Shown here: piece after piece, positions 570 to 12,698 of the stretch
How the letters are laid out: each line of letters begins with the position of its first letter
How positions within the stretch are numbered: position 1 is the stretch's first letter
NCBI GenBank assembly: GCA_937925895.1
Contig: CALANC010000243.1
Span: forward strand, 1 to 13,547
Direction of reading: 5' to 3'
Length of the DNA stretch: 13,547 nt
From: an uncultured Desulfobacterales bacterium
Lineage (GTDB): Bacteria; Desulfobacterota; Desulfobacteria; Desulfobacterales; UBA11574
Position numbers and translations under genes: made by a program
Notes under the pieces: generated by a model
Databases searched by the model: none
Told to the model about the DNA's origin: nothing
The model's input: the letters and a program-made list of their open reading frames with translations, nothing else

Positions 570-2333
570 TTAATGGGAACCCGATTTTGAAGAAGCACAG
601 GATCCAGGTGTTGGTCTTGGCACCGACCAGTTAATTCTTATGGCTTTTTTCTTTCTGATGGATTCGGTCTGTTCCAGAGACAGTGCAGCATCGTTCTTGT
701 CGTAAAAAGTTTTGGGCTCATAGCTCCACCCGTTTTTTAGGCGTCTTTCTTCATTCATAATTGCTGTTAGGCAATATATTCCTATGATGGGTGCAATGGC
801 CCGTGTTTTCCATCCAAATTCCTGGTAAAGATCCTTGAGAAGCTCTTTTAATTTGTGTTGCACAGTTTTATTTTTCCGAAACCGTTTTTTCATAGCCCAG
901 ACAGCACCCGCATAGGTGGTTCGAATGGGGGCTGTATCCCATTCATATCGACCCCGGATCCGTTCGTCCGGGTTATTCTTGTAACGTTGCCAGCCTTTCA
1001 ACATTGTCCGTATCAACCTGCTTAAGCTGGGGCCGTTGACATGGAAATCGCGTTTGAAGGCATTTATTAAAAATTGACCTTCTTGGCCTTTCGATATATG
1101 GGGGTGTCTATAGTTAAAACGGTACTGCCCATGTGCATCTGCCATGGAAAATTCCGATTCGTTAAAAAGTGTTCCTGCCTTTTTATGTTGTTCATATAAC
1201 GGAGTACCCGGATTGGGTGTATAAAGCATGAACTGATGAAAATCTGTTTCATGACTGACAGCATATTCGATCGTATCGTTGATGTTTTCTGGCGTGTGGT
1301 TTTCCAGTCCGATAATAGTGGAGCCCAACACCCTGATTCCATGGGATTGTAAGTTTCGAACCAGATCTCGGGTAGCTACGTCGTTTAGTTTTCGATAGCG
1401 ATTGGTCTTTCCTTCCAACCCCATCCAGACCCAGATTATGCCAAGGCCCACCAGCTGTTCAATCGTATAGGACTTCAATACCCGTGCTGAACTGAAAACA
1501 CTAAGTACCCAGCTTTTTCGATGTTCCTCAATCAGTTCAAGTAGGCGAAGTGCACGTTTCCGGTGAAGCAAAAAGTTTTCATCCAGTATGAAAAAGGAGC
1601 GCACTTTCAGTTTGCTCTCCATTTCGCACATGACATTAAACAGTTCGTCTCCGGTTTTAAAGAAATTGATGAATCGGCCTTTTCCCCCGAACAGGGAAGA
1701 CGTGGAACAGAAATTGCAGCCGATTGGGCACCCCACTGAAGGAATCAGAATGGCAGCAACATCTCCAGGCTTATCTCTTAGAGAAAGACCTACGATTCGA
1801 GTCCCGAATGCTGAATAGACCATGGGATGCTTTAATGGCGCTTCCAGGTCTTGGCCGAGGAAGTTCCTAAACCACGGAATACCGTCTCCCTTTACGATCT
1901 GGTCGGCGTCGATCATTTCTTGAAGATTCTCTATAGATGCGATATGGCCGCCGACAATGATCCTTGCATTCGGCTGATGCCTGCGAATCAGTTTACACAT
2001 TATCCTAACCTTTTCAATATTAGGCGCAATAGAGCTGATACCGATGATTTCGTATGAATTAGCTTTAACTTCATGGGTAAAGCGGTCAAGGGATGGAAAA
2101 TCCAGTACTGTGCAAGGAGCATCAATATTGGCTTGAATCATCAAAAGTGCAAACGTTCGGTGAAACATTCTTAGCGAGTAGGCGCCTTGTACACGTGTTA
2201 CCTGGTTTTGATAAAGTTCCATTGGATTGATTTTCCTGCTTCCGTATTCATCATCCTGCGCATAGGGCCCAAAAACGCTTGACAATAAAACCCTGACATC
2301 TGTTCCGTGGGGGTGAACAGTTTCTGTCTTCAT
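570..2333 (-). CDS. Radical SAM protein with N-terminal B12-binding-like domain
   Basis: The 587-residue product has the layout of B12-binding-domain radical SAM enzymes, which cleave S-adenosylmethionine with a 4Fe-4S cluster and often use a cobalamin. Residues about 60-160 look like the Rossmann-type B12-binding fold (IIGISSIAPN, then ARIIVGGHIAS near 123-133). The classic DxHxxG base-off motif is not seen. The cluster motif CPIGCNFC supplies C202, C206 and C209. A radical SAM barrel follows to about residue 400, with MGLEGKTN near 304 and LGSTIIGLENHTPEN near 336. The C-terminal 180 residues are basic and unassigned. I chose the ATG at 2333 rather than one 11 codons upstream because AAGGAG lies 6-7 bases before it. 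The substrate cannot be told from sequence. It appears to be transcribed alone. Confidence 0.85.
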   Translation of the reverse strand: MKTETVHPHGTDVRVLLSSVFGPYAQDDEYGSRKINPMELYQNQVTRVQGAYSLRMFHRTFALLMIQANIDAPCTVLDFPSLDRFTHEVKANSYEIIGISSIAPNIEKVRIMCKLIRRHQPNARIIVGGHIASIENLQEMIDADQIVKGDGIPWFRNFLGQDLEAPLKHPMVYSAFGTRIVGLSLRDKPGDVAAILIPSVGCPIGCNFCSTSSLFGGKGRFINFFKTGDELFNVMCEMESKLKVRSFFILDENFLLHRKRALRLLELIEEHRKSWVLSVFSSARVLKSYTIEQLVGLGIIWVWMGLEGKTNRYRKLNDVATRDLVRNLQSHGIRVLGSTIIGLENHTPENINDTIEYAVSHETDFHQFMLYTPNPGTPLYEQHKKAGTLFNESEFSMADAHGQYRFNYRHPHISKGQEGQFLINAFKRDFHVNGPSLSRLIRTMLKGWQRYKNNPDERIRGRYEWDTAPIRTTYAGAVWAMKKRFRKNKTVQHKLKELLKDLYQEFGWKTRAIAPIIGIYCLTAIMNEERRLKNGWSYEPKTFYDKNDAALSLEQTESIRKKKAIRINWSVPRPTPGSCASSKSGSH

Positions 2334-2673
2334 ATTAGACTCCTTGATGTTTTTGATTGTTTGCACTCGGGGTTTCAGGAATTGCCCGAACGGGGGATAT
2401 TTTATCTTTAGCCCTAGATGCGGTCATTGTGTTTATATTCAATTATACAAACATATCCATTAAAAACCATAATAGAATTGTGGTTTTACAAAAGTTTTAC
2501 ACGTTTATAGGCAACACGATAAGAAAAGGTTTTTGGGATTGATTAAGCGGTTTAGGACATAACATATCGGCTTAGAAAAATGAGGCGTCTTTCATTTTTT
2601 TCGAGGTTGGTCTCAAGCCAGAAACCACCTTAGGATTAATTGCCAAATCTTACCTTTTAAAAATTCCCTTGCT
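2334..2673. other. Intergenic region upstream of the radical SAM gene
   Basis: About 340 AT-rich bases with no supported gene. On the minus strand there is a TATAAT at 2442-2447, about 110 bases before the radical SAM start. Its -35 region is poor, so I do not call it as a promoter. Otherwise I see nothing that can be named. Confidence 0.4.
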
Positions 2674-3134: not shown

Positions 3135-5138
3135 TTAATTTAAAACCAAATCGATGATCTCTTCTAATTCATTGATTTTATAAATCTTGAGATCTTTACT
3201 TATATCCTCGGGGATATCTCTGATGTCCGCTTCGTTTTTGGCCGGAAAAACCACGGATTTAACACCGGCCCGGTGTGCGGCCAGGACCTTTTCCTTGACG
3301 CCACCCACCGGCAGAATTCTTCCGCTCAACGTCAACTCACCGGTCAGCGCCACATTTCTTTTGCAGGAACGCTCCGTTATCAAACTGATGAGTGCAATGG
3401 CGATGGTCAGGCCAGCCGAAGGCCCGTCTTTCGGGATGGCTCCGGCCGGAACGTGAATGTGAATATCATGGGCCTCGAACATGCTGTCCGGAATATTCAA
3501 GGATTCGGCATGGCTCCGAATGTAGCTCATTGCTGCATGGGCCGACTCCTTCATCACATCACCCAATGACCCGGTGAGGAGAAGATTTCCTTTTCCTTTC
3601 ATCTTGGCAGCCTCAATGAAAATAATTTGGCCGCCGGCTTCCGTCCATGCCAGTCCGGTGGCCACCCCCACCCGTTCTTTGGCTTCCAAAACTTCAAAAT
3701 AAAACTTTTTTGGGCCCAGAAAATGTTCCACCATTTCCGGAGGTATCGTATACTGTCCATTCTTATGCTGACCGCTTAAGGTTTCACGAGCGAGTTTGCG
3801 GCAGATGGAAGCGATCTGACGTTTGAGATTTCTCAAACCTGCTTCTCGAGTGTATTCCCGGATGATTTTGTGGATGGTCTCTGAAGCAAAAACAGGGGGA
3901 TTTTCGGAAAGCCCGGCTTCTTCGATTTCTTTGGGGATTAAATAGTACGTGGCGATTTTTTCTTTTTCTTCTTCCGTATATCCCAACAGGGTAATCACCT
4001 CTAGCCGATCCAGAAGCGGTCCGGGAATCAGGTCCAACGCGTTTGCGGTGGCGATGAACATGACCCGAGACAGGTCAAACGGAACATCCAGGTAATGATC
4101 CATGAAATGGGAATTCTGCTCGGGATCGAGAACTTCCAGTAACGCCGCCGCCGGATCCCCTTTGAAGTCTCTACCGATTTTATCGATTTCATCCAGCATA
4201 ATGAGCGGATTTTTCGTTTCCGCACGCCGAATTTCCTGGATGATTCTCCCCGGCAAGGCACCGACATAGCTTTTGCGATGTCCCCTTATCTCGGCTTCGT
4301 CCTTCATGCCGGCCAAAGACATGCGGACGAATTTCCGTTCCAAACTCGTGGCGATCGACATTCCCAAAGATGTTTTCCCGGTGCCGGGGGGGCCGGCAAA
4401 ACATAGCACAGGGCCTTTGGGCTCCAAACGAACCTTTTTCTTAAAAAGTGCATTCTGAATGGTTGACCGGATTTCATCGAGCTTTAGCGGTTTTGTCAGG
4501 TAGTGGTACGACCCCTTTTTCATGGCTTCAATGGCCGTCGACACCGTGGCGTATCCTGTGATGATAATCACTTCGGTACTTGGATTGACGTTTTTGGCTT
4601 TTTCCAAGACAGTCATACCGTCGACTTTGCCCATTTTAAGATCCGTTACAATAACATCAAAGGCGCTTTTTTCCAAAAAATTCAATGCTTCCATCCCGTT
4701 GGAGGCGGTATTGACTTGATAGCCGTCTTTTTTAAAGACATGCTCCAGATTCTGACGGGTAATTTTTTCATCATCCACAACCAGTATCTTATGCTGGTGC
4801 GACATTTTGAGTATTCTGACCGAAAGATGCTCCAGGATACGGTCCTTTATGTTGGTCAGTCCAAAATGATCTTCATTGAGAATCGACTCGGCCCGTTTAA
4901 TATCGAGATTGTCGTCCGTCATTTTGTTCCAGGGTAAACTGATCAGATAATCGATATAGTTGATGCCGATGGTATATTCAGCGCCCGAAGGGGCGGTTTT
5001 TGTCAATCGTTCTATTTCTTTAAGAGCGACTTTTTCCACCGGTTCGGGCATCTTGGCTTTTTGGATTTCTTCTTTTAATTCATCAAGTTCCGATGCCAGT
5101 TCTTTCATTTGTTCTTTTTCTTTTTTAAATATGCGCAT
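3135..5138 (-). CDS. Lon-type ATP-dependent serine protease with an embedded response-regulator receiver domain
   Basis: The 667-residue protein is a Lon protease of unusual build. Residues 1-110 match the coiled-coil/helical middle of Lon (MPEPVEKVALKEIERL, YLISLPWNK, ILNEDHFGL). Residues 117-235 are a full CheY-like receiver with acidic D122/D123, phospho-acceptor D166, T194 and K216. The Lon AAA+ module resumes at KGPVLCF: Walker A GPPGTGKT (249-256), Walker B D316/E317, sensor-1 N366, arginine finger R378 and sensor-2 R436. The protease domain has catalytic S574 in KDGPSAG and K617 in GGVKEK. The usual N-terminal LAN substrate-binding domain is absent. An in-frame TAA at 5163-5165 with no start codon in between shows the short N-terminus is real. 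The Shine-Dalgarno is weak. Known for the family: ATP-driven unfolding and degradation. Inferred: phosphorylation of D166 gates the ATPase. An internal MSHQHK at residue 112 looks like a former receiver start. Confidence 0.92.
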   Translation of the reverse strand: MRIFKKEKEQMKELASELDELKEEIQKAKMPEPVEKVALKEIERLTKTAPSGAEYTIGINYIDYLISLPWNKMTDDNLDIKRAESILNEDHFGLTNIKDRILEHLSVRILKMSHQHKILVVDDEKITRQNLEHVFKKDGYQVNTASNGMEALNFLEKSAFDVIVTDLKMGKVDGMTVLEKAKNVNPSTEVIIITGYATVSTAIEAMKKGSYHYLTKPLKLDEIRSTIQNALFKKKVRLEPKGPVLCFAGPPGTGKTSLGMSIATSLERKFVRMSLAGMKDEAEIRGHRKSYVGALPGRIIQEIRRAETKNPLIMLDEIDKIGRDFKGDPAAALLEVLDPEQNSHFMDHYLDVPFDLSRVMFIATANALDLIPGPLLDRLEVITLLGYTEEEKEKIATYYLIPKEIEEAGLSENPPVFASETIHKIIREYTREAGLRNLKRQIASICRKLARETLSGQHKNGQYTIPPEMVEHFLGPKKFYFEVLEAKERVGVATGLAWTEAGGQIIFIEAAKMKGKGNLLLTGSLGDVMKESAHAAMSYIRSHAESLNIPDSMFEAHDIHIHVPAGAIPKDGPSAGLTIAIALISLITERSCKRNVALTGELTLSGRILPVGGVKEKVLAAHRAGVKSVVFPAKNEADIRDIPEDISKDLKIYKINELEEIIDLVLN

Positions 5139-5230: not shown

Positions 5231-5247
5231 CGTTACAATATGCAACG
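5231..5247 (-). promoter_or_regulatory. Candidate operator, copy 1 (CGTTGCATATTGTAACG)
   Basis: Read on the minus strand this is an imperfect palindrome. It matches the copy at 5317-5332 at 14 of 16 positions. It lies about 95 bases upstream of the lon-like start. A regulator-binding site is an inference from symmetry and repetition; no regulator can be named. Confidence 0.4.
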
Positions 5248-5316: not shown

Positions 5317-5332
5317 CGTTGCAAATTGCAAC
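5317..5332 (+). promoter_or_regulatory. Candidate operator, copy 2 (GTTGCAAATTGCAAC palindrome)
   Basis: The 15 bases at 5318-5332 form a perfect inverted repeat around a single central A. With copy 1 it makes a pair of near-identical sites about 86 bases apart, in the control region shared by the lon-like gene and the stress operon. The copy sits about 90 bases upstream of the -24/-12 promoter, a usual distance for a sigma-54 activator site, so the NtrC-type regulator at 10803 is one candidate binder (inference). Confidence 0.45.
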
Positions 5333-5411: not shown

Positions 5412-5428
5412 TTGGCACAAGAGTTGCT
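5412..5428 (+). promoter_or_regulatory. Sigma-54 (-24/-12) promoter of the stress operon
   Basis: TTGGCACAAGAGTTGCT matches the RpoN consensus (TGGCAC-N5-TTGCW) at every key base. GG is at 5414-5415 and GC at 5426-5427, exactly 12 bases apart. Transcription would start near 5438, about 45 bases before the ATG at 5483. Sigma-54 promoters need an AAA+ activator, and one is encoded at 10803 in this window. Confidence 0.85.
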
Positions 5429-5482: not shown

Positions 5483-5659
5483 ATGTTTAAATTTAAAAAG
5501 ACTTTCGACAGATTGATGGCAGCCATCACCTTTGCCGAAGCCAATGAACATGAGACTGCGCTCGATATCATGCACGACCGGCCGGAAAAGGAAAGCCGAA
5601 AAAGAACCGATGCCCGCATCCGGCGTAGCGAAGAAACCCGACCGGAGATGCGTGTTTAA
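5483..5659 (+). CDS. 58-residue TFAEA-motif protein, first gene of the stress operon
   Basis: The frame starts at ATG 5483, with GGGAG about ten bases upstream, and ends in TAA at 5657-5659. The first 31 residues (MFKFKKTFDRLMAAITFAEA, then NEHETALDIM) form an amphipathic helical segment. The remainder is charged, rich in Arg, Glu and Lys, and probably disordered. Residues 15-29 recur in the two following gene products, as FAEAGEHETALDI and FAEAGESEYAMET. It is the first gene after the sigma-54 promoter and lies 36 bases before the next gene. I do not recognise a named family. A role as a stand-alone version of the shared motif, perhaps for binding the Usp-like partners, is inference only. 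Confidence 0.75.
   Translation: MFKFKKTFDRLMAAITFAEANEHETALDIMHDRPEKESRKRTDARIRRSEETRPEMRV
5528..5569 (+). repeat. TFAEA-motif coding repeat, copy 1 of 3
   Basis: This is the coding segment for TFAEANEHETALDI. Related segments start at 5900 and 6327. The DNA for ACC-TTT-GCC-GAA-GCC is identical in all three copies, so the motif has spread by duplication or is under strong constraint. Confidence 0.65.
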
Positions 5660-5695
5660 CCGGGCCGGTCCGTTAAACAGCCAAAGGGGATAAAA

Positions 5696-6202
5696 ATGGA
5701 AAAAGTTTTGTTGGCCATAGACGGTGGAACTCCCGATCAAAAGGCATTTCGTTATGCAATTGCGCTTTGTAAGCAAATTAAAGCGGAATTGAGCATATTC
5801 CAGATTATCAGGCCCCAATATTATCGGGAATATATTAAAAAAATTCGAAAAAAGGCCTTGCTCGCAAGAACGTATATTGAAGGCTCCATGGTGGCGGCGA
5901 CCTTTGCCGAAGCCGGCGAACATGAGACCGCCTTGGACATTGTGGCCGAGGCCTCTAAACAAATCGAGCACCTCTTGTCGGAATCGAAAAAAGAGGGCGT
6001 TCATTGTCATTTTTCAATAAAATCGGGGAATCCTGAAAAAGAGATTATCAATTATGTGAACGATCATCGGGACGTTGTTTTGGCGATCTTCGATGCCTCT
6101 CATCAAGATGTCAATCGAATCGTCAATGTTTCAGAAAAGAAAAATGCGCTCGCGAGAATAAAAAAAGATCTACCCGTTCCCCTGGTAACTGTTCACAGTT
6201 AG
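5696..6202 (+). CDS. Universal-stress-protein-like protein with TFAEAGE helical insertion
   Basis: The 168-residue product begins like a Usp domain: strand EKVLLAIDGG, helix PDQKAFRYAIALCKQI, strand AELSIFQII. It ends with VPLVTVHS, the usual last Usp strand. Between them (about residues 45-100) lies a long helical insertion carrying MVAATFAEAGEHETALDI (65-82), the motif shared with its neighbours. The Usp nucleotide-binding signature G-2x-G-9x-G-S/T is not present, so it probably does not bind ATP. AAAGGGG precedes the ATG by about seven bases. Usp proteins are cytoplasmic dimers induced by starvation and other stresses. Placement behind a sigma-54 promoter fits a stress role. The exact partner or ligand is unknown. 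Confidence 0.75.
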   Translation: MEKVLLAIDGGTPDQKAFRYAIALCKQIKAELSIFQIIRPQYYREYIKKIRKKALLARTYIEGSMVAATFAEAGEHETALDIVAEASKQIEHLLSESKKEGVHCHFSIKSGNPEKEIINYVNDHRDVVLAIFDASHQDVNRIVNVSEKKNALARIKKDLPVPLVTVHS

Positions 6203-6248: not shown

Positions 6249-6806
6249 ATGGCAGGAATTTTTGAAAGGATGAGACAAAAGTTGAGCAAAGCAGGCAAAA
6301 AAATGGACAAGTATCAAGAGGCGATTACCTTTGCCGAAGCCGGTGAATCCGAATATGCCATGGAGACGATGGCAGAGCAAACCGAAGAACAGCAAATCAT
6401 GCAACTTCTGGTTGTTGGCAGAGAAAGTACCTTTTCCAAAGAGATTATCGACTATGCGCTTGATATGGCCCAGCGAATGTCCTATGAAATTCTGGCCTTA
6501 AACACCGCTCCCTTGTCTTGCGATACGTTCAAGCTGTTTTCAAATTCACGTGATCAGCTTTGTGGAGAATTTAAAAGCTTGTCAGAAAAAAATGCCGCCA
6601 TGTTTCAGCAAGCAGCTGCTGCAAAAGGAATCGCTTTTAATCATATCGTGATGTTCAGCGAGGCTGAGGAGGCTCTGCAAACAGTTACAAGAGATAATAA
6701 AAACATAGCTTTCGTAGTTTCAGAATCTATTGAAGATCGTGCCGAAAGCAGAATCGAGGAAGGCGAAAGATTGCATAAGCCTCTATACGTATATTCCATT
6801 GTATAA
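6249..6806 (+). CDS. Universal-stress-protein-like protein with N-terminal TFAEAGE extension
   Basis: The 185-residue protein has a helical N-terminus (1-48) with the motif AITFAEAGESEYAMETMAEQ at residues 25-44. A Usp-like alpha/beta domain follows: strand IMQLLVVG (50-57), helix KEIIDYALDMAQRM, strand YEILALN (79-85), and a last strand PLYVYSIV. The ATP-binding glycine signature is missing here too. AGAGGAG lies about eight bases before the ATG. It starts 46 bases after the previous stop and is the last gene before the strong terminator, so it closes the three-gene operon. Together the three genes show the motif alone, inserted in a Usp fold and fused in front of one. Function beyond stress response is not deducible. 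Confidence 0.72.
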   Translation: MAGIFERMRQKLSKAGKKMDKYQEAITFAEAGESEYAMETMAEQTEEQQIMQLLVVGRESTFSKEIIDYALDMAQRMSYEILALNTAPLSCDTFKLFSNSRDQLCGEFKSLSEKNAAMFQQAAAAKGIAFNHIVMFSEAEEALQTVTRDNKNIAFVVSESIEDRAESRIEEGERLHKPLYVYSIV

Positions 6807-7212: not shown

Positions 7213-9027
7213 ATGACACCTGAAATGATCCTGACAATGATTGTTCTGGTTTTTGCTATTATCCTGTTTATTTTTGAGTGGGTAAGAGTCGATGTGGTTG
7301 GAATCATAATGATGGTCATGCTCCCTCTTATCGGCCTGGTATCTCCTAAAGAAGCTTTTGTGGGATTGAGCAGTAATGCAGTCTGCTCCATTATTGCGGT
7401 AATCATCATCGGCGCAGGACTCGATAAGACCGGCGTGATGAACAAGGTTGCCGGTCCCATAATCAAACTGGCCGGCAACAGTGAAAAAAAGGTGATTACC
7501 CTCATCTCCGGAACCGTCGGCATCATCTCCAGTATGATGCAAAACATCGGTGCCGCCGCGCTTTTTCTGCCGGCTGCCCAGCGCATTGCCAAAAGAATGG
7601 GGGTGCCCATATCCCGTATTTTGATGCCCATGGGTTTCTGCGCCATCATCGGAGGAACCATCACGCTGGTGGGGGCCAGTCCGACCATATTGTTGAACGA
7701 TTTGATGGTGCTGGGCGGAAAAAAACTGGAACCCTTTGGACTTTTTACCCAAACTCCCATCGGAATCTGCCTGCTCTCAAGCGCCATCGTCTATTTTTTG
7801 TTGTTCGGCAAATTTATTTTGCCAGCGGCCGAAGGCGAGTCGGAAAAGGATGTTACGGCCATGCTGATGGATGAGTATCAGGGACTTGAACATGTATTCG
7901 AACTTCATGTTCCGGAAACTTTTACCAAACCCAGATCCCTGGAAGAACTGGGCGTCAGAGCAAAATTTCTGGTAACCATCGTGGCCATTAGTTATACAGA
8001 CAAAAAAGAAAAACTCTACGTGCCGCGCAGCATCGACGTCATTTCAGCCAATGATGACCTTGCCGTTGTGGGCAGAGCCAAAAAAGTGCGCAAACTGGCC
8101 GAAGAATACGGCTGGATCATCAAAGACGGCCTGGAGGTGTTTGGCGAGTATTTGGCTCCGACCAACGCCGGCATGACCGAAACCGTGGTTTCACCCCGGT
8201 CGGAATTGATCGGCAAAACCATGAGCGAAGTCAACTTCAAAGAGCAATACAGTGTCAATCCGGTGGCCCTTTTTACCGGCCAAAAAATTATCTACAGCGG
8301 CCTGACCCATGTTCGGTTGAGAATGGGTGACACCCTGTTGCTGCACGGCCCCTGGGACCGGTTCCATATTCTGAGAAATAAGCCGCAGCCGCGGGCACTT
8401 ACCTTTGCCACGACCCTGGAAGGTGAAATTATGCGTCCGGAGAAGGCCAAACTGGCGGTGATCTGGCTGGCAGTGGCACTGACGCAAATCATTGTTTTTA
8501 AGACACAGCTTTCAGTGGCCCTGATGTCCGGCGCCCTGGGAATGATCATCACCGGTGTGCTTTCGGTGGACGAAGCCTATTATGCCGTGGACTGGATGAC
8601 GGTTTTTTTGCTGGCAGGCCTGATACCATTGGGAATGGCTTTTGAAAAAACCGGAACAGCCGCTTTTATTGCCAAATATATCTTAGGATTGCTGGGTCAA
8701 CCGTCTCCCATTGTGCTTCTGGCTGCTGTCGGTGTGATGACATCTTTTTTCACCCTGGTGGTTTCCAATGTGGGCGCTACGGTTTTGCTGGTTCCCTTAT
8801 GTATGAACATGGCGGTCATGGCCGGCGGAGACCCCCGGATGGCTGCACTGGTCGTCGGCCTGTCGGCTTCCAACACTTTCGTTTTGCCGACCCATCAGGT
8901 CAACGCCCTGATTATGCGACCTGGCGGGTATCGAACGGTGGACTATGCCAAGGCGGGTGCAGTGATGACCGCCATCTTTTTAGCGGTAGAGTTGGCCATT
9001 CTCTATTTCTTTTACGGGATTCAGTAA
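7213..9027 (+). CDS. SLC13 (DASS)-type permease with two TrkA-C domains
   Basis: The 604-residue protein is a membrane transporter of the divalent anion:Na+ symporter kind. The N-terminal half (1-205) has several hydrophobic spans and the motif SMMQNIGAAALFLP (107-120), the position of the sodium-binding SNT signature. GASPTILLNDL follows near 154. Residues about 220-390 are soluble and contain two TrkA-C/RCK-C-like domains (KFLVTIVAISY...DDLAVVG, and a second ending RMGDTLLLHG). The C-terminal half carries SNVGATVLLVP (518-528) and SNTFVLPTHQVNAL (553-566). AAAGGA stands 10 bases before the ATG. Family members of this layout carry sulfate, other oxyanions or dicarboxylates. The substrate is not decided by sequence, and sulfate is only a reasonable guess for a sulfate reducer. 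Confidence 0.9.
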   Translation: MTPEMILTMIVLVFAIILFIFEWVRVDVVGIIMMVMLPLIGLVSPKEAFVGLSSNAVCSIIAVIIIGAGLDKTGVMNKVAGPIIKLAGNSEKKVITLISGTVGIISSMMQNIGAAALFLPAAQRIAKRMGVPISRILMPMGFCAIIGGTITLVGASPTILLNDLMVLGGKKLEPFGLFTQTPIGICLLSSAIVYFLLFGKFILPAAEGESEKDVTAMLMDEYQGLEHVFELHVPETFTKPRSLEELGVRAKFLVTIVAISYTDKKEKLYVPRSIDVISANDDLAVVGRAKKVRKLAEEYGWIIKDGLEVFGEYLAPTNAGMTETVVSPRSELIGKTMSEVNFKEQYSVNPVALFTGQKIIYSGLTHVRLRMGDTLLLHGPWDRFHILRNKPQPRALTFATTLEGEIMRPEKAKLAVIWLAVALTQIIVFKTQLSVALMSGALGMIITGVLSVDEAYYAVDWMTVFLLAGLIPLGMAFEKTGTAAFIAKYILGLLGQPSPIVLLAAVGVMTSFFTLVVSNVGATVLLVPLCMNMAVMAGGDPRMAALVVGLSASNTFVLPTHQVNALIMRPGGYRTVDYAKAGAVMTAIFLAVELAILYFFYGIQ

Positions 9028-9279: not shown

Positions 9280-10689
9280 ATGAAAATCAGTATCAGAGGG
9301 AAGATTTTTCTCGCTTTTGCGATATTTATAGGTCTTAGTGCGCTAGTATGGGCGCGCAGTTATTACAGCCAGTATGTTCTCAATCAAAAAATCCAGATCA
9401 TTGAGAGAAAATACGATCTTTTTAATTCCATCCTGGAAGCCCGCCGATATGAAAAAAACTATTTTTTATCCTTTGACAGAAAAAATATTGAAGAGGCCCT
9501 CGACTATGTTCATCAGGCAGAGGAAATCCTTCGTGATATATTGGCCAAATACTCAAAATACACTCTGGCTAAAAATCTCGATGAAAGGGTTGCCGAATTG
9601 GTGGCATATAAGGAGTCTCTCAAAAGTCTCATGAAATTAGATGAAGGATATTTGGTGGTTCCTCAGAACGCCATTGATTCAATCCGAAATCAGGGAAGAA
9701 TTCTTACCGATGAGCTGGAAAAAATTGTAAAAAAAGAGAGCAAATTTACCCAGGATCTGATCGGAAAATCTAGAATGATCCATCTGATCGCCCTTATACC
9801 TGTTTTTATCCTGTCCGTTGTCGTTGCCCTGTTTTTAATTTTTAATGTTAACCGCCCCCTAAAGATCATCGGGGAAGCCATTACCAAAATCTCCATTGGC
9901 GATTTTAAAAGCATTCCTGAAATAAAGAGCGGCGATGAATTTGAATCCCTGGTAGATAGTCTTAACAATATGATCAGTGAGCTGAACAATCGTAGCAAAC
10001 AGCTTGTTCAGGCCCAGAAACTGGCATCTTTAGGGAGATTAACCTCCGGTGTAGCCCATGAATTGAACAACCCCTTAAATAATATTTCCACCTCTATTCA
10101 AATCTTGGTGGAAGAATGGGATGACGCCGATATGGGATATAAAAAAAAGCTTTTGGCCGGTGCTGAAAAAGAGGTGGAAAGGAGCAAAGAAATAGTCAAG
10201 TCACTGTTGGAATTCGCCAGAGAAAGGTCTTTAACCTTAAAAGAGATTAATTTTAGAGCCCTGGTCAACACTGCAGTTGAACATGTTAAATCGGAGATAC
10301 CGAAGAACATTAATCTTATCGTGGAGGTGCCCGAGGACATAAAGGCCACTATCGGGGTTCGGATTAAGAATGTTTTAATCAATCTTATCATTAATGCCGC
10401 ACATGCCATGAAAGATGGTGGCGACATCACCGTCAAAGCATACAAACAGAATGAGAAAAACGGATTTTGTTTTCAGGTGATAGATACGGGCATGGGAATC
10501 CCTAAGGACATCATCTCAAAAATCTTTGATCCTTTTTTCACCACAAAAGAAGTGGGCGCGGGCTCCGGACTGGGGCTGTCCATTGTCTACGGCATTATGG
10601 AACAACACGGCGGCAACATATCCGTTTCCAGCGAGATTGGAAAGGGCACGACATTTACCTGCTTTCTGCCGTTTGATCAGCAGGAATAA
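9280..10689 (+). CDS. Membrane sensor histidine kinase (HAMP, HisKA, HATPase)
   Basis: The 469-residue protein has a transmembrane helix at about 8-25, a helical extracytoplasmic sensor region of about 140 residues, and a second span near 167-189. A HAMP domain follows (NRPLKIIGEAITKISIGDF onward, to about 240). The H-box is LTSGVAHELNNPLNNI with phospho-accepting H260. The ATP-binding module has the N box at N372, G1 DTGMG (402-406), F box FDPFFTTK and G2 GSGLGLS. The HELNNPL form is typical of kinases paired with NtrC-type regulators. The helical sensor resembles four-helix-bundle ligand sensors, and its signal is unknown. It lies 113 bases upstream of a sigma-54 response regulator, its likely partner. 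The Shine-Dalgarno is weak. Confidence 0.93.
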   Translation: MKISIRGKIFLAFAIFIGLSALVWARSYYSQYVLNQKIQIIERKYDLFNSILEARRYEKNYFLSFDRKNIEEALDYVHQAEEILRDILAKYSKYTLAKNLDERVAELVAYKESLKSLMKLDEGYLVVPQNAIDSIRNQGRILTDELEKIVKKESKFTQDLIGKSRMIHLIALIPVFILSVVVALFLIFNVNRPLKIIGEAITKISIGDFKSIPEIKSGDEFESLVDSLNNMISELNNRSKQLVQAQKLASLGRLTSGVAHELNNPLNNISTSIQILVEEWDDADMGYKKKLLAGAEKEVERSKEIVKSLLEFARERSLTLKEINFRALVNTAVEHVKSEIPKNINLIVEVPEDIKATIGVRIKNVLINLIINAAHAMKDGGDITVKAYKQNEKNGFCFQVIDTGMGIPKDIISKIFDPFFTTKEVGAGSGLGLSIVYGIMEQHGGNISVSSEIGKGTTFTCFLPFDQQE

Positions 10690-10802: not shown

Positions 10803-12173
10803 GTGGAAAAGAAAAAAGAAACCATTCTGGTTGTAGAGGACGAAGAAATTGCCCGAAAAAATCTTGAGCATATTCTCCTCAAATCAGGTTACAACGTCAT
10901 TTCCGTCAACAATGGGAGCAAGGCCATCGGCTTGCTGCACTCAAAAAACTTCGATCTAGTGATCACCGATTTGAAAATGGAAAAAATTGACGGTATGCAG
11001 GTGTTACAGAAAACGAAAGAACTCCAGCCTTACACCGAAGTCATTATGATCACCGGCTATGCCACCGTCGATTCGTCCGTTCAAGCCATGCGGGATGGCG
11101 CCTATTATTATATCGCCAAACCCTATAAAATCGAAGAAGTTCGACAGATTACCAAAGAGGCGCTTTTAAAACGGCGACTGCGGCTTGAAAACATTAAGCT
11201 GAAAGAAACACTCAGCAAGCAGCAAAAGATTCCCGCCATTATCGGTCAGAGCAAGGGCATGCTAGATGTTCAAAAAACCATTCATCAGATTGCTTCTTCC
11301 GACATCAACGTCTTGATTTTCGGCGAAAGTGGAACCGGTAAGGAACTGGTTGCCCGCTCCATCCACCAGCTCAGCCCCCGATCTGAAAAAGAATTCATTG
11401 CCTTCAATTGTGGTTCGTTTACTGAAGAGTTAATGGCCAATGAGTTGTTCGGTCATGAAAAGGATGCCTTTACCGGAGCCACAAAGACAAAGGCAGGACT
11501 GATCAGGGTGGCCGACGGCGGAACGGTTTTTCTGGATGAAATCGGAGATATGCCGCCGAGTATGCAGGTGAAGCTGTTGCGCGTCATCCAGGAGAAAGAG
11601 GTTTTGCCGGTGGGCGGCGAGACATCCGTTCCCGTGGATGTGCGTTTCATTGCAGCCACCCATCGCGACCTCAAAAAAGATGTGGAAAAAGGTCATTTCC
11701 GTCAGGATCTGTTTTATCGTTTGAATGTCATCACCATAAAACTTCCTTCCCTTGCCGAAAGAAACGGTGACATACCACTTCTGGCTCATCACTTTCTATC
11801 TCTAAAAAGCAACGCCATGGATAAAGAGGTTGATAATATCCGAAGAGAATCCATGGAATTGCTTTGTCAATACAGCTGGCCGGGAAATATCAGAGAACTG
11901 GAAAATGTCATTGAACGGGCCCTCGCTCTGGCCAACGGGCCGGAAATAACCGTCGGCGATCTGCCGGATTATATCAGCGATCTTTCGGTTGAAACCTATC
12001 GTCGGAAATCTTCCGACATCCCGACCCTTGAAGAGCATGAGAAGAGCTACATTAAATGGATTTTGGAAAAATGTGAGTGGAATAAAACCAAAGCAGCGAA
12101 ATTTATGGGTATTGACCGGGTTTCCCTTTGGCGCAAAATCAAAAGATTCGGACTGGAATCTGAAAGCGATTGA
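10803..12173 (+). CDS. NtrC-family sigma-54-dependent response regulator (receiver, AAA+, Fis HTH)
   Basis: Translation starts at GTG 10803 with AGAAGGA about six bases upstream. The 456 residues form a receiver (E12/D13, phospho-site D56, T84, K106), a sigma-54 AAA+ domain and a Fis-type helix-turn-helix (about 413-452, NKTKAAKFMGIDRVSLWRKI). Walker A is GESGTGKE (174-181), Walker B LDEIGD (244-249), and sensor-2 lies in GNIREL. The sigma-54 contact loop reads DAFTGA (221-226) rather than GAFTGA. It probably receives phosphate from the kinase encoded just upstream and remodels RpoN-polymerase at -24/-12 promoters. The promoter at 5412 and perhaps that at 13446 are candidate targets. Its receiver is about 50% identical, by eye, to the one inside the Lon-like protein, including the shared TDLKM-x-K-V/I-DGM. 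Confidence 0.95.
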   Translation: MEKKKETILVVEDEEIARKNLEHILLKSGYNVISVNNGSKAIGLLHSKNFDLVITDLKMEKIDGMQVLQKTKELQPYTEVIMITGYATVDSSVQAMRDGAYYYIAKPYKIEEVRQITKEALLKRRLRLENIKLKETLSKQQKIPAIIGQSKGMLDVQKTIHQIASSDINVLIFGESGTGKELVARSIHQLSPRSEKEFIAFNCGSFTEELMANELFGHEKDAFTGATKTKAGLIRVADGGTVFLDEIGDMPPSMQVKLLRVIQEKEVLPVGGETSVPVDVRFIAATHRDLKKDVEKGHFRQDLFYRLNVITIKLPSLAERNGDIPLLAHHFLSLKSNAMDKEVDNIRRESMELLCQYSWPGNIRELENVIERALALANGPEITVGDLPDYISDLSVETYRRKSSDIPTLEEHEKSYIKWILEKCEWNKTKAAKFMGIDRVSLWRKIKRFGLESESD

Positions 12174-12275: not shown

Positions 12276-12698
12276 TTATGGTGGAGGCTCATTCAAAACC
12301 ATCCAGTATCTAATTGCTTCCGCCATCTGCTCAGAATCCAATGGCTTACGAATATAGCTGCTGGCTCCCGACAGATAAATTTCACTTAAACCCTGCTCAT
12401 CCGCCGATGAAGTGAGAACAACAACAGGGATTAACTTGGTATTTTCGTCATCGCGCAGACGTCTCAACACTTCCAATCCATCTATTTTTGGCAGCTTCAA
12501 ATCTAACAGGACAACTTGAGGCATATTGCTTAGGTCACGATCTGCATAGGTCCCCGTTCTGAACAGATAGTCGAGTGCTTCGGCTCCGTCTTTCGCAACC
12601 ACGATGTCACTCATAATATCATTTCCCTCAAGTATATCAAGTATCAACTGTTCATCTTCGGAATTGTTGGTCACCAAAAGCATGGTTTTTTTGTCCAC
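12276..12698 (-). CDS. Single-domain response regulator (Rcp1/CheY type) lacking the acidic pair
   Basis: The 140-residue protein is a stand-alone receiver of the Rcp1-like class. Its marks are DGAEALDYLFRTGTYADRDL, then LLDLKLPKIDGLEVLRRLRD and the ending LNEPPP. Phospho-site D66, T96 and K118 are present. The first loop reads LLVTNNSED where the family has LLVEDNPDD, so both Mg-binding acidic residues are replaced (T10, N11). Phosphorylation may therefore be weak or absent. The start is GTG 12698, with AAGGAAAG about six bases before it. Having no output domain, it must act by protein contact. It is convergent with the sigma-54 regulator operon. Confidence 0.9.
   Translation of the reverse strand: MDKKTMLLVTNNSEDEQLILDILEGNDIMSDIVVAKDGAEALDYLFRTGTYADRDLSNMPQVVLLDLKLPKIDGLEVLRRLRDDENTKLIPVVVLTSSADEQGLSEIYLSGASSYIRKPLDSEQMAEAIRYWMVLNEPPP

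Follow-up and report, generated by a model that had tools for sequence, protein, structure and literature searches.

The window analyzed here, a whole stretch of 13,547 nucleotides from an uncultured Desulfobacterales bacterium, encodes a Lon protease that carries a phospho-receiver within its own chain (receiver-Lon; Table 1). The protease is of the LonA type but LAN-less, and the inserted receiver separates the last helix of its N-terminal region from the Walker-A strand. We propose that the receiver-Lon belongs, as the protease arm, to a three-component system in which a kinase shared with a sigma54-type regulator would phosphorylate it and phosphorylation would activate its motor. We put the probability of this whole reading at about 0.55. 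Behind it stand the anatomy of the protein, its conservation, its gene neighborhood and the kinship of two receivers.

Table 1. Features of the receiver-Lon locus, in positions of the window or residues of the receiver-Lon.
Feature	Position	Strand	Remarks
Receiver-Lon gene, 667 aa	3135..5138	minus	ATG start, single frame without internal stop
N-terminal Lon helical segment	residues 1-110		alignment beside canonical Lons
Receiver domain, phospho-acceptor D166	4443..4796	minus	about residues 115-232; coordinates converted from residues
AAA+ domain	residues 245-386		Pfam AAA
Lid	residues 406-459		Pfam Lon_lid
Protease domain	residues 465-666		Pfam Lon_C, 289 bits
Distal imperfect palindrome GTTACAATATGCAAC	5232..5246		probable activator site
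Proximal palindrome GTTGCAAATTGCAAC	5318..5332		spaced 86 bp from its distal partner; probable activator site
Sigma54 -24/-12 promoter match TGGCACAAGAGTTGCT	5413..5428	+	faces the Usp/transporter genes
Small ORF, about 58 aa, with 'MAAITFAEANEHETALDI'	5484..5660	+	first ORF past the sigma54 promoter; stretch also present in the following two genes; read by eye
Usp-family protein	5696..6202	+	PF00582
Small protein without Pfam match	6249..6806	+	neighbor of the system also in related loci
Anion transporter, CitMHS with TrkA_C domains	7213..9027	+	Pfam
Sensor histidine kinase (HAMP, HisKA, HATPase_c)	9280..10689	+	Pfam
Sigma54-type response regulator (receiver, Sigma54_activat, HTH_8)	10803..12173	+	Pfam

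Anatomy, conservation and spread of the receiver-Lon

The initial annotation had reported an uninterrupted frame without giving its strand; the frame is open throughout and lies on the minus strand. The Pfam match to Response_reg spans residues 118-227 (100.8 bits). The protein scores 747.6 bits with the NCBIfam endopeptidase La model TIGR00763, for which the cut-off is 608.05. It has the AAA+ domain with Walker A and B, the Lon lid and the Lon_C domain with a Ser-Lys dyad that mark LonA. The N-terminal LAN domain of LonA is absent, as had been claimed: LON_substr_bdg is not among the Pfam matches of the window protein. We therefore class the receiver-Lon as a LAN-less Lon variant and not as a typical LonA. 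A LAN domain is found in a separate frame of 242 residues elsewhere in the genome (G000:C354:619-1161).

An alignment with two canonical Lons from this genome shows the point of insertion. The receiver-Lon starts within the helical region, shortly ahead of the motor, and its extra residues lie between 'VRILK' and 'KGPVLCF'. The segment ending 'ILEHLSVR' is followed by the receiver, after which the chain resumes with 'KGPVLCFAGPPGTGKTS'. At the same spot a canonical Lon from this genome has just a few residues ('VRKLKPESKGPILCF'). This agrees with the earlier placement of the receiver between the Lon helical region and Walker A, and with the earlier statement that an ordinary Lon passes almost directly to KGPVLCF. 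We take the 'ILEHLSVR' helix to belong with the AAA+ fold, and the receiver would therefore sit inside the motor module and not merely ahead of it. Besides the receiver-Lon, the genome has two canonical LonA genes elsewhere (C123 and C229), which would leave the receiver-Lon free for a special task.

The solved receivers nearest in sequence to the Lon receiver are NtrC-type (PDB IDs: 1zy2, 4l4u, 1ny5). NCBIfam matches to CpdR and RssB models reflect nothing more than the receiver fold.

We aligned 51 chosen receiver-Lons with identities from 94 to 50% (the window protein, 23 of 120 listed homologues, and members from 27 of the 32 receiver-Lon loci described below). Residues D122, D123, D166 and K216 of the receiver are identical in all 51. 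T194 is kept in 49 and is Ser in the other two; the receiver pattern (DD, D, T/S, K) is complete across the alignment. The Walker lysine K255 and both residues of the Ser-Lys dyad, S574 and K617, are identical in 51/51. The complete receiver, intact ATPase and Ser574/Lys617 that had been read from the single sequence are thus found across the aligned members. A purely structural receiver, in which phosphorylation plays no part, is very improbable, because the phosphorylation residues are conserved in members down to 50% identity.

Both the receiver and Lon_C were found in each of the 51 proteins when scanned, and LON_substr_bdg is not among the families listed for any of them. This absence speaks for the receiver as a built-in substrate adaptor that replaces LAN, in which case phosphorylation would alter the proteins caught and not the speed of the motor. 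The receiver is also the sole added domain, and another AAA+ protease is known to use receiver-based adaptors. However, the receiver lies just before the Walker-A strand and not at the N-terminal place of LAN, a position that suits control of the motor at least equally well. We consider the built-in adaptor unlikely; it is nevertheless the rival explanation with the most weight.

In two homologue searches, each represented by its best 120 of 8000 matches, the receiver lies ahead of Lon_C in 240/240 listed homologues. Essentially full-length matches are present in 38 of 296 Desulfobacterota genomes, the genome of the window included; the 296 are an even draw across the phylum. The next best genome matches cover the motor and protease alone, and the score falls from 749 to 631 bits. 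The domain order across genomes, proposed in the initial annotation as a check, therefore holds well beyond the window. A chance fusion, or an assembly or frame artifact joining two genes, is refuted by the recurrence of the same one-frame order in these relatives and genomes. Two copies would fit such an artifact, namely L036, whose frame is broken near residue 112, and the truncated L046; each may itself be an assembly fault.

Eighty loci were drawn from GTDB contigs. They comprise 32 receiver-Lon loci (one with a frame break and one cut by a contig end), the truncated copy in L046, and 47 loci with a Lon that has no receiver. Record titles assign the 32 receiver-Lon loci to Desulfobacterota groups and to Nitrospirae. 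In a tree of 82 Lon cores, one branch parts 33 receiver-Lons from 49 others (SH-aLRT 99; quick search without bootstrap, rooted for drawing only). The tree leaves out L046 and L004-L006, which gave no match to the Walker pattern used; L004-L006 are three Lon_C matches that are not LonA-like. L049, which is cut by a contig end, was counted as a canonical Lon, and the tree agrees with this. The topology is consistent with a single origin of receiver-Lons.

Neighboring genes and the control region

Neighbors were counted in 33 related receiver-Lon loci (the window excluded and the truncated L046 included) and in the 47 canonical-Lon loci. With contigs of unequal length and queries taken from the window, the counts are rough: a strong match to the sigma54 regulator (>350 bits) is present in 26/33 versus 1/47, a strong match to the kinase (>180 bits) in 26/33 versus 0/47, a Usp-like match in 18/33 versus 0/47, and a transporter match in 10/33 versus 0/47. 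Regulator and kinase are both found in 25/33 at a lower cut-off, and the regulator at a lower cut-off of 140 bits is found in 4/47 canonical-Lon loci. Seven of the 33 have no strong regulator match, some of them owing to a contig end. The kinase of the window is the probable phosphate donor for the receivers of both the Lon and the sigma54 regulator.

Some further features of the window were observed. A stretch like 'ITFAEA.E.E.A', seen by eye, is common to 5484-5660, 5696-6202 and 6249-6806. The GAFTGA loop of the window sigma54 regulator (10803-12173) reads DAFTGA; among 36 sigma54 regulators (the window and relatives) 17 have GAFTGA, 8 EAFTGA and 4 DAFTGA, and 7 do not match the pattern. 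A third, stand-alone receiver protein (12276-12698, minus strand) is distant from the other two window receivers (26-27%). A B12-binding radical SAM protein (570-2366, minus strand) has no evident tie to the receiver-Lon system.

Between the lon and Usp genes lie two palindromes and a sigma54 promoter match, which is the only exact match of the promoter pattern in the window. The core TTGCA-N3-TGCAA occurs 26 times in 18/34 receiver-Lon loci and is found in none of the 47 canonical-Lon loci. It is the commonest arm pair of its form in the receiver-Lon loci; the next, A/T runs aside, occurs 7 times. Pairs of this palindrome 85-91 bp apart, counted with two mismatches in sum, are present in 21/34 receiver-Lon loci versus 0/47 canonical-Lon loci. 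They also occur in 4/7 further loci, the species of which may overlap with the first 34. Loci with such pairs include the window, L007, L010, L011, L015, L016, L018, L019, L028, L029, L117, L122 and L123. By subtraction, 93-95 bp separate the sigma54 promoter from the proximal palindrome in the window, L007, L008, L009 and L122; the distance differs in L010 and L034 (202 and 80). The paired palindromes probably form an enhancer pair with putative sites for the sigma54 regulator.

Most receiver-Lon loci scanned have no strict sigma54 promoter match, and strict matches are not enriched (0.15 per 10 kb in receiver-Lon loci versus 0.10 in canonical-Lon loci). The match in the window stands because of its position and because it is the sole exact one, not because of density. 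The matches of a loose GG-N10-GC scan did not exceed chance (62 found, 79 expected). One palindrome variant, with four spacer bases, occurs in 0/116 loci, and no Rfam family reached its gathering score in the window.

Kinship of the two receivers and a candidate phosphorylation switch

Among the genome receivers compared, the Lon receiver has its reciprocal best match in that of the neighboring sigma54 regulator, with 51% identity and 134 bits (next best 108 and 96). One kinase therefore probably serves both, which is the simplest reading of this pair. A tree built from 89 receivers groups 33 Lon receivers with 25 neighbor-regulator receivers in one set (support 96/91). The set leaves out 28 other genome receivers and three regulators of a second kinase pair found in Nitrospirae loci; 11 of the 41 genome receiver matches, for which there was no locus, are not in the tree, and one of these 11 is the distant stand-alone receiver of the window. 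Within the set of 58 the Lon receivers are not a single clade (4 changes; 118 columns only), a topology that allows more than one history of the Lon receiver. Helix-1 specificity residues were also considered as proof of a common kinase. The cognate regulators share 7.6/14 of these residues with the Lon receiver, hardly above the 6.0/14 of non-cognate regulators (three non-cognate pairs only), and this argument was set aside as weak.

The receiver-Lon architecture and the idea of its activation by phosphorylation are already in print. A 2011 paper describes DVU3303 of Desulfovibrio vulgaris as a Lon protease-containing response regulator and places it in a three-component system with the kinase DVU3304 and the sigma54 regulator DVU3305 (PMC3333781). 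The same paper suggests phosphorylation of DVU3303 as a requirement for protease activity, states that DVU3305 controls its own operon and DVU3302-3298, and names orthologues of the system in other genera (PMC3333781). The same DVU3305 targets are listed in a second paper (PMC4641369). A mutant screen from 2023 supports a joint function of DVU3303-3305: the three genes have pairwise cofitness >0.9, loss of DVU3303/3304/3305 aids growth in chlorate, and the targets of the system include the anion transporter DVU3299 (PMC10102598). The initial annotation had known of no characterized example, a statement that these papers correct. For the biochemistry of receiver-Lons (phosphorylation, ATPase, protease), no paper was found in open-licence PubMed Central. 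The present analysis adds where exactly the receiver is inserted, how wide the class is, that the two receivers are related and that the palindromes come in pairs.

Most known control of AAA+ proteases works by way of separate adaptors or by the amount of protease. With a receiver as part of its own chain, Lon would have a switch that acts directly and reversibly on a processive protease. In the proposed mechanism, the kinase at 9280 would pass phosphate both to the receiver of the sigma54 regulator (10803) and to D166 of the Lon. The phosphorylated regulator would turn on the Usp/transporter genes. Phosphorylated D166 would shift the receiver against the AAA+ ring and raise ATPase activity and proteolysis, with the Lon being activated by assembly or by release from an inhibited state. 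One signal would then start transcription and remove particular proteins together. We infer the phosphotransfer, the direction of the switch (activation) and the substrates of the receiver-Lon. More tentatively, we suggest that a receiver akin to that of the partner transcription factor, built in before Walker A, lets one kinase throw two AAA+ machines, with phosphorylation acting directly on the Lon motor.

We favor a switch on the motor because the receiver quintet is kept (T194 in 49/51) together with the Walker residues and the Ser-Lys dyad, because the kinase and sigma54-regulator neighbors are conserved and the receivers related, and because the NtrC-type receivers nearest among solved structures likewise stand ahead of an AAA+ domain. 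The D. vulgaris cofitness (PMC10102598) and the suggestion about DVU3303 phosphorylation (PMC3333781) argue in the same direction. Polar effects may account for part of this cofitness, because the operon described for D. vulgaris contains lon, kinase and regulator together. Direct two-component control, as the initial annotation had proposed, is thus the best reading of the sequences; its conserved quintet, its neighbors and its related receivers are observed, while the phospho-switch itself would follow from them by inference.

Related receivers would also compete for one kinase, as expected if the Lon receiver tuned one of its partners, the kinase or the sigma54 regulator, by serving as a phosphate sink or a docking site, with a constitutive protease that perhaps degrades the system's own parts. 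We regard this as improbable. The ATPase and protease residues are strictly retained, and a sink should act oppositely to its partners, whereas in the D. vulgaris screen loss of the Lon matches loss of the kinase or regulator in fitness, unless the effect is polar (PMC10102598).

If the motor switch is true, a protease ring is gated by a phospho-aspartate within its own chain, and the receiver-Lon would offer a way to ask what turns Lon rings on. Receiver-Lons are widespread in Desulfobacterota and Nitrospirota, and D. vulgaris offers a genetic model with a chlorate phenotype.

Comparison with known systems

The window resembles DVU3303-3305, as published, in having a Lon-containing response regulator, a histidine kinase and a sigma54 regulator together, with a Usp protein and an anion transporter as neighbors. 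The transporter of the window, matched by description, holds the place of DVU3299. The published account of D. vulgaris has one operon for the Lon, kinase and regulator and another for the targets. In the window, by contrast, the lon gene is divergent; the opposite strand carries the Usp/transporter genes and, after them, the kinase and regulator. The probable kinship with DVU3303 is drawn from its published description and from relatives of the type in L117. The relative in the Desulfovibrionaceae-like L117 is 54% identical to the window receiver-Lon and has the same build and neighbors, and P0141 and P0145 from Humidesulfovibrio (Desulfovibrionaceae) are kin matched by the L117 query.

The canonical LonA proteases (PDB IDs: 7p6u, 3m6a, 6u5z; C123 and C229 of the same genome) share with the receiver-Lon the AAA+ domain, the lid, the S16 protease with its Ser-Lys dyad and part of the N-terminal helical region. 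The receiver-Lon differs from them in having no LAN, a shortened N-terminus and a receiver inserted before Walker A. The NtrC/NtrC1-type sigma54 activators also have a receiver ahead of an AAA+ ring. Their output is sigma54 activation and not Lon proteolysis, and the receiver of the receiver-Lon lies inside the Lon frame, past the N-terminal helices. CpdR and RssB are single receivers or receiver proteins that prime ClpXP as adaptors. They too place an AAA+ protease under receiver control, but as separate proteins acting on ClpXP, whereas the receiver of the receiver-Lon is fused into the protease.
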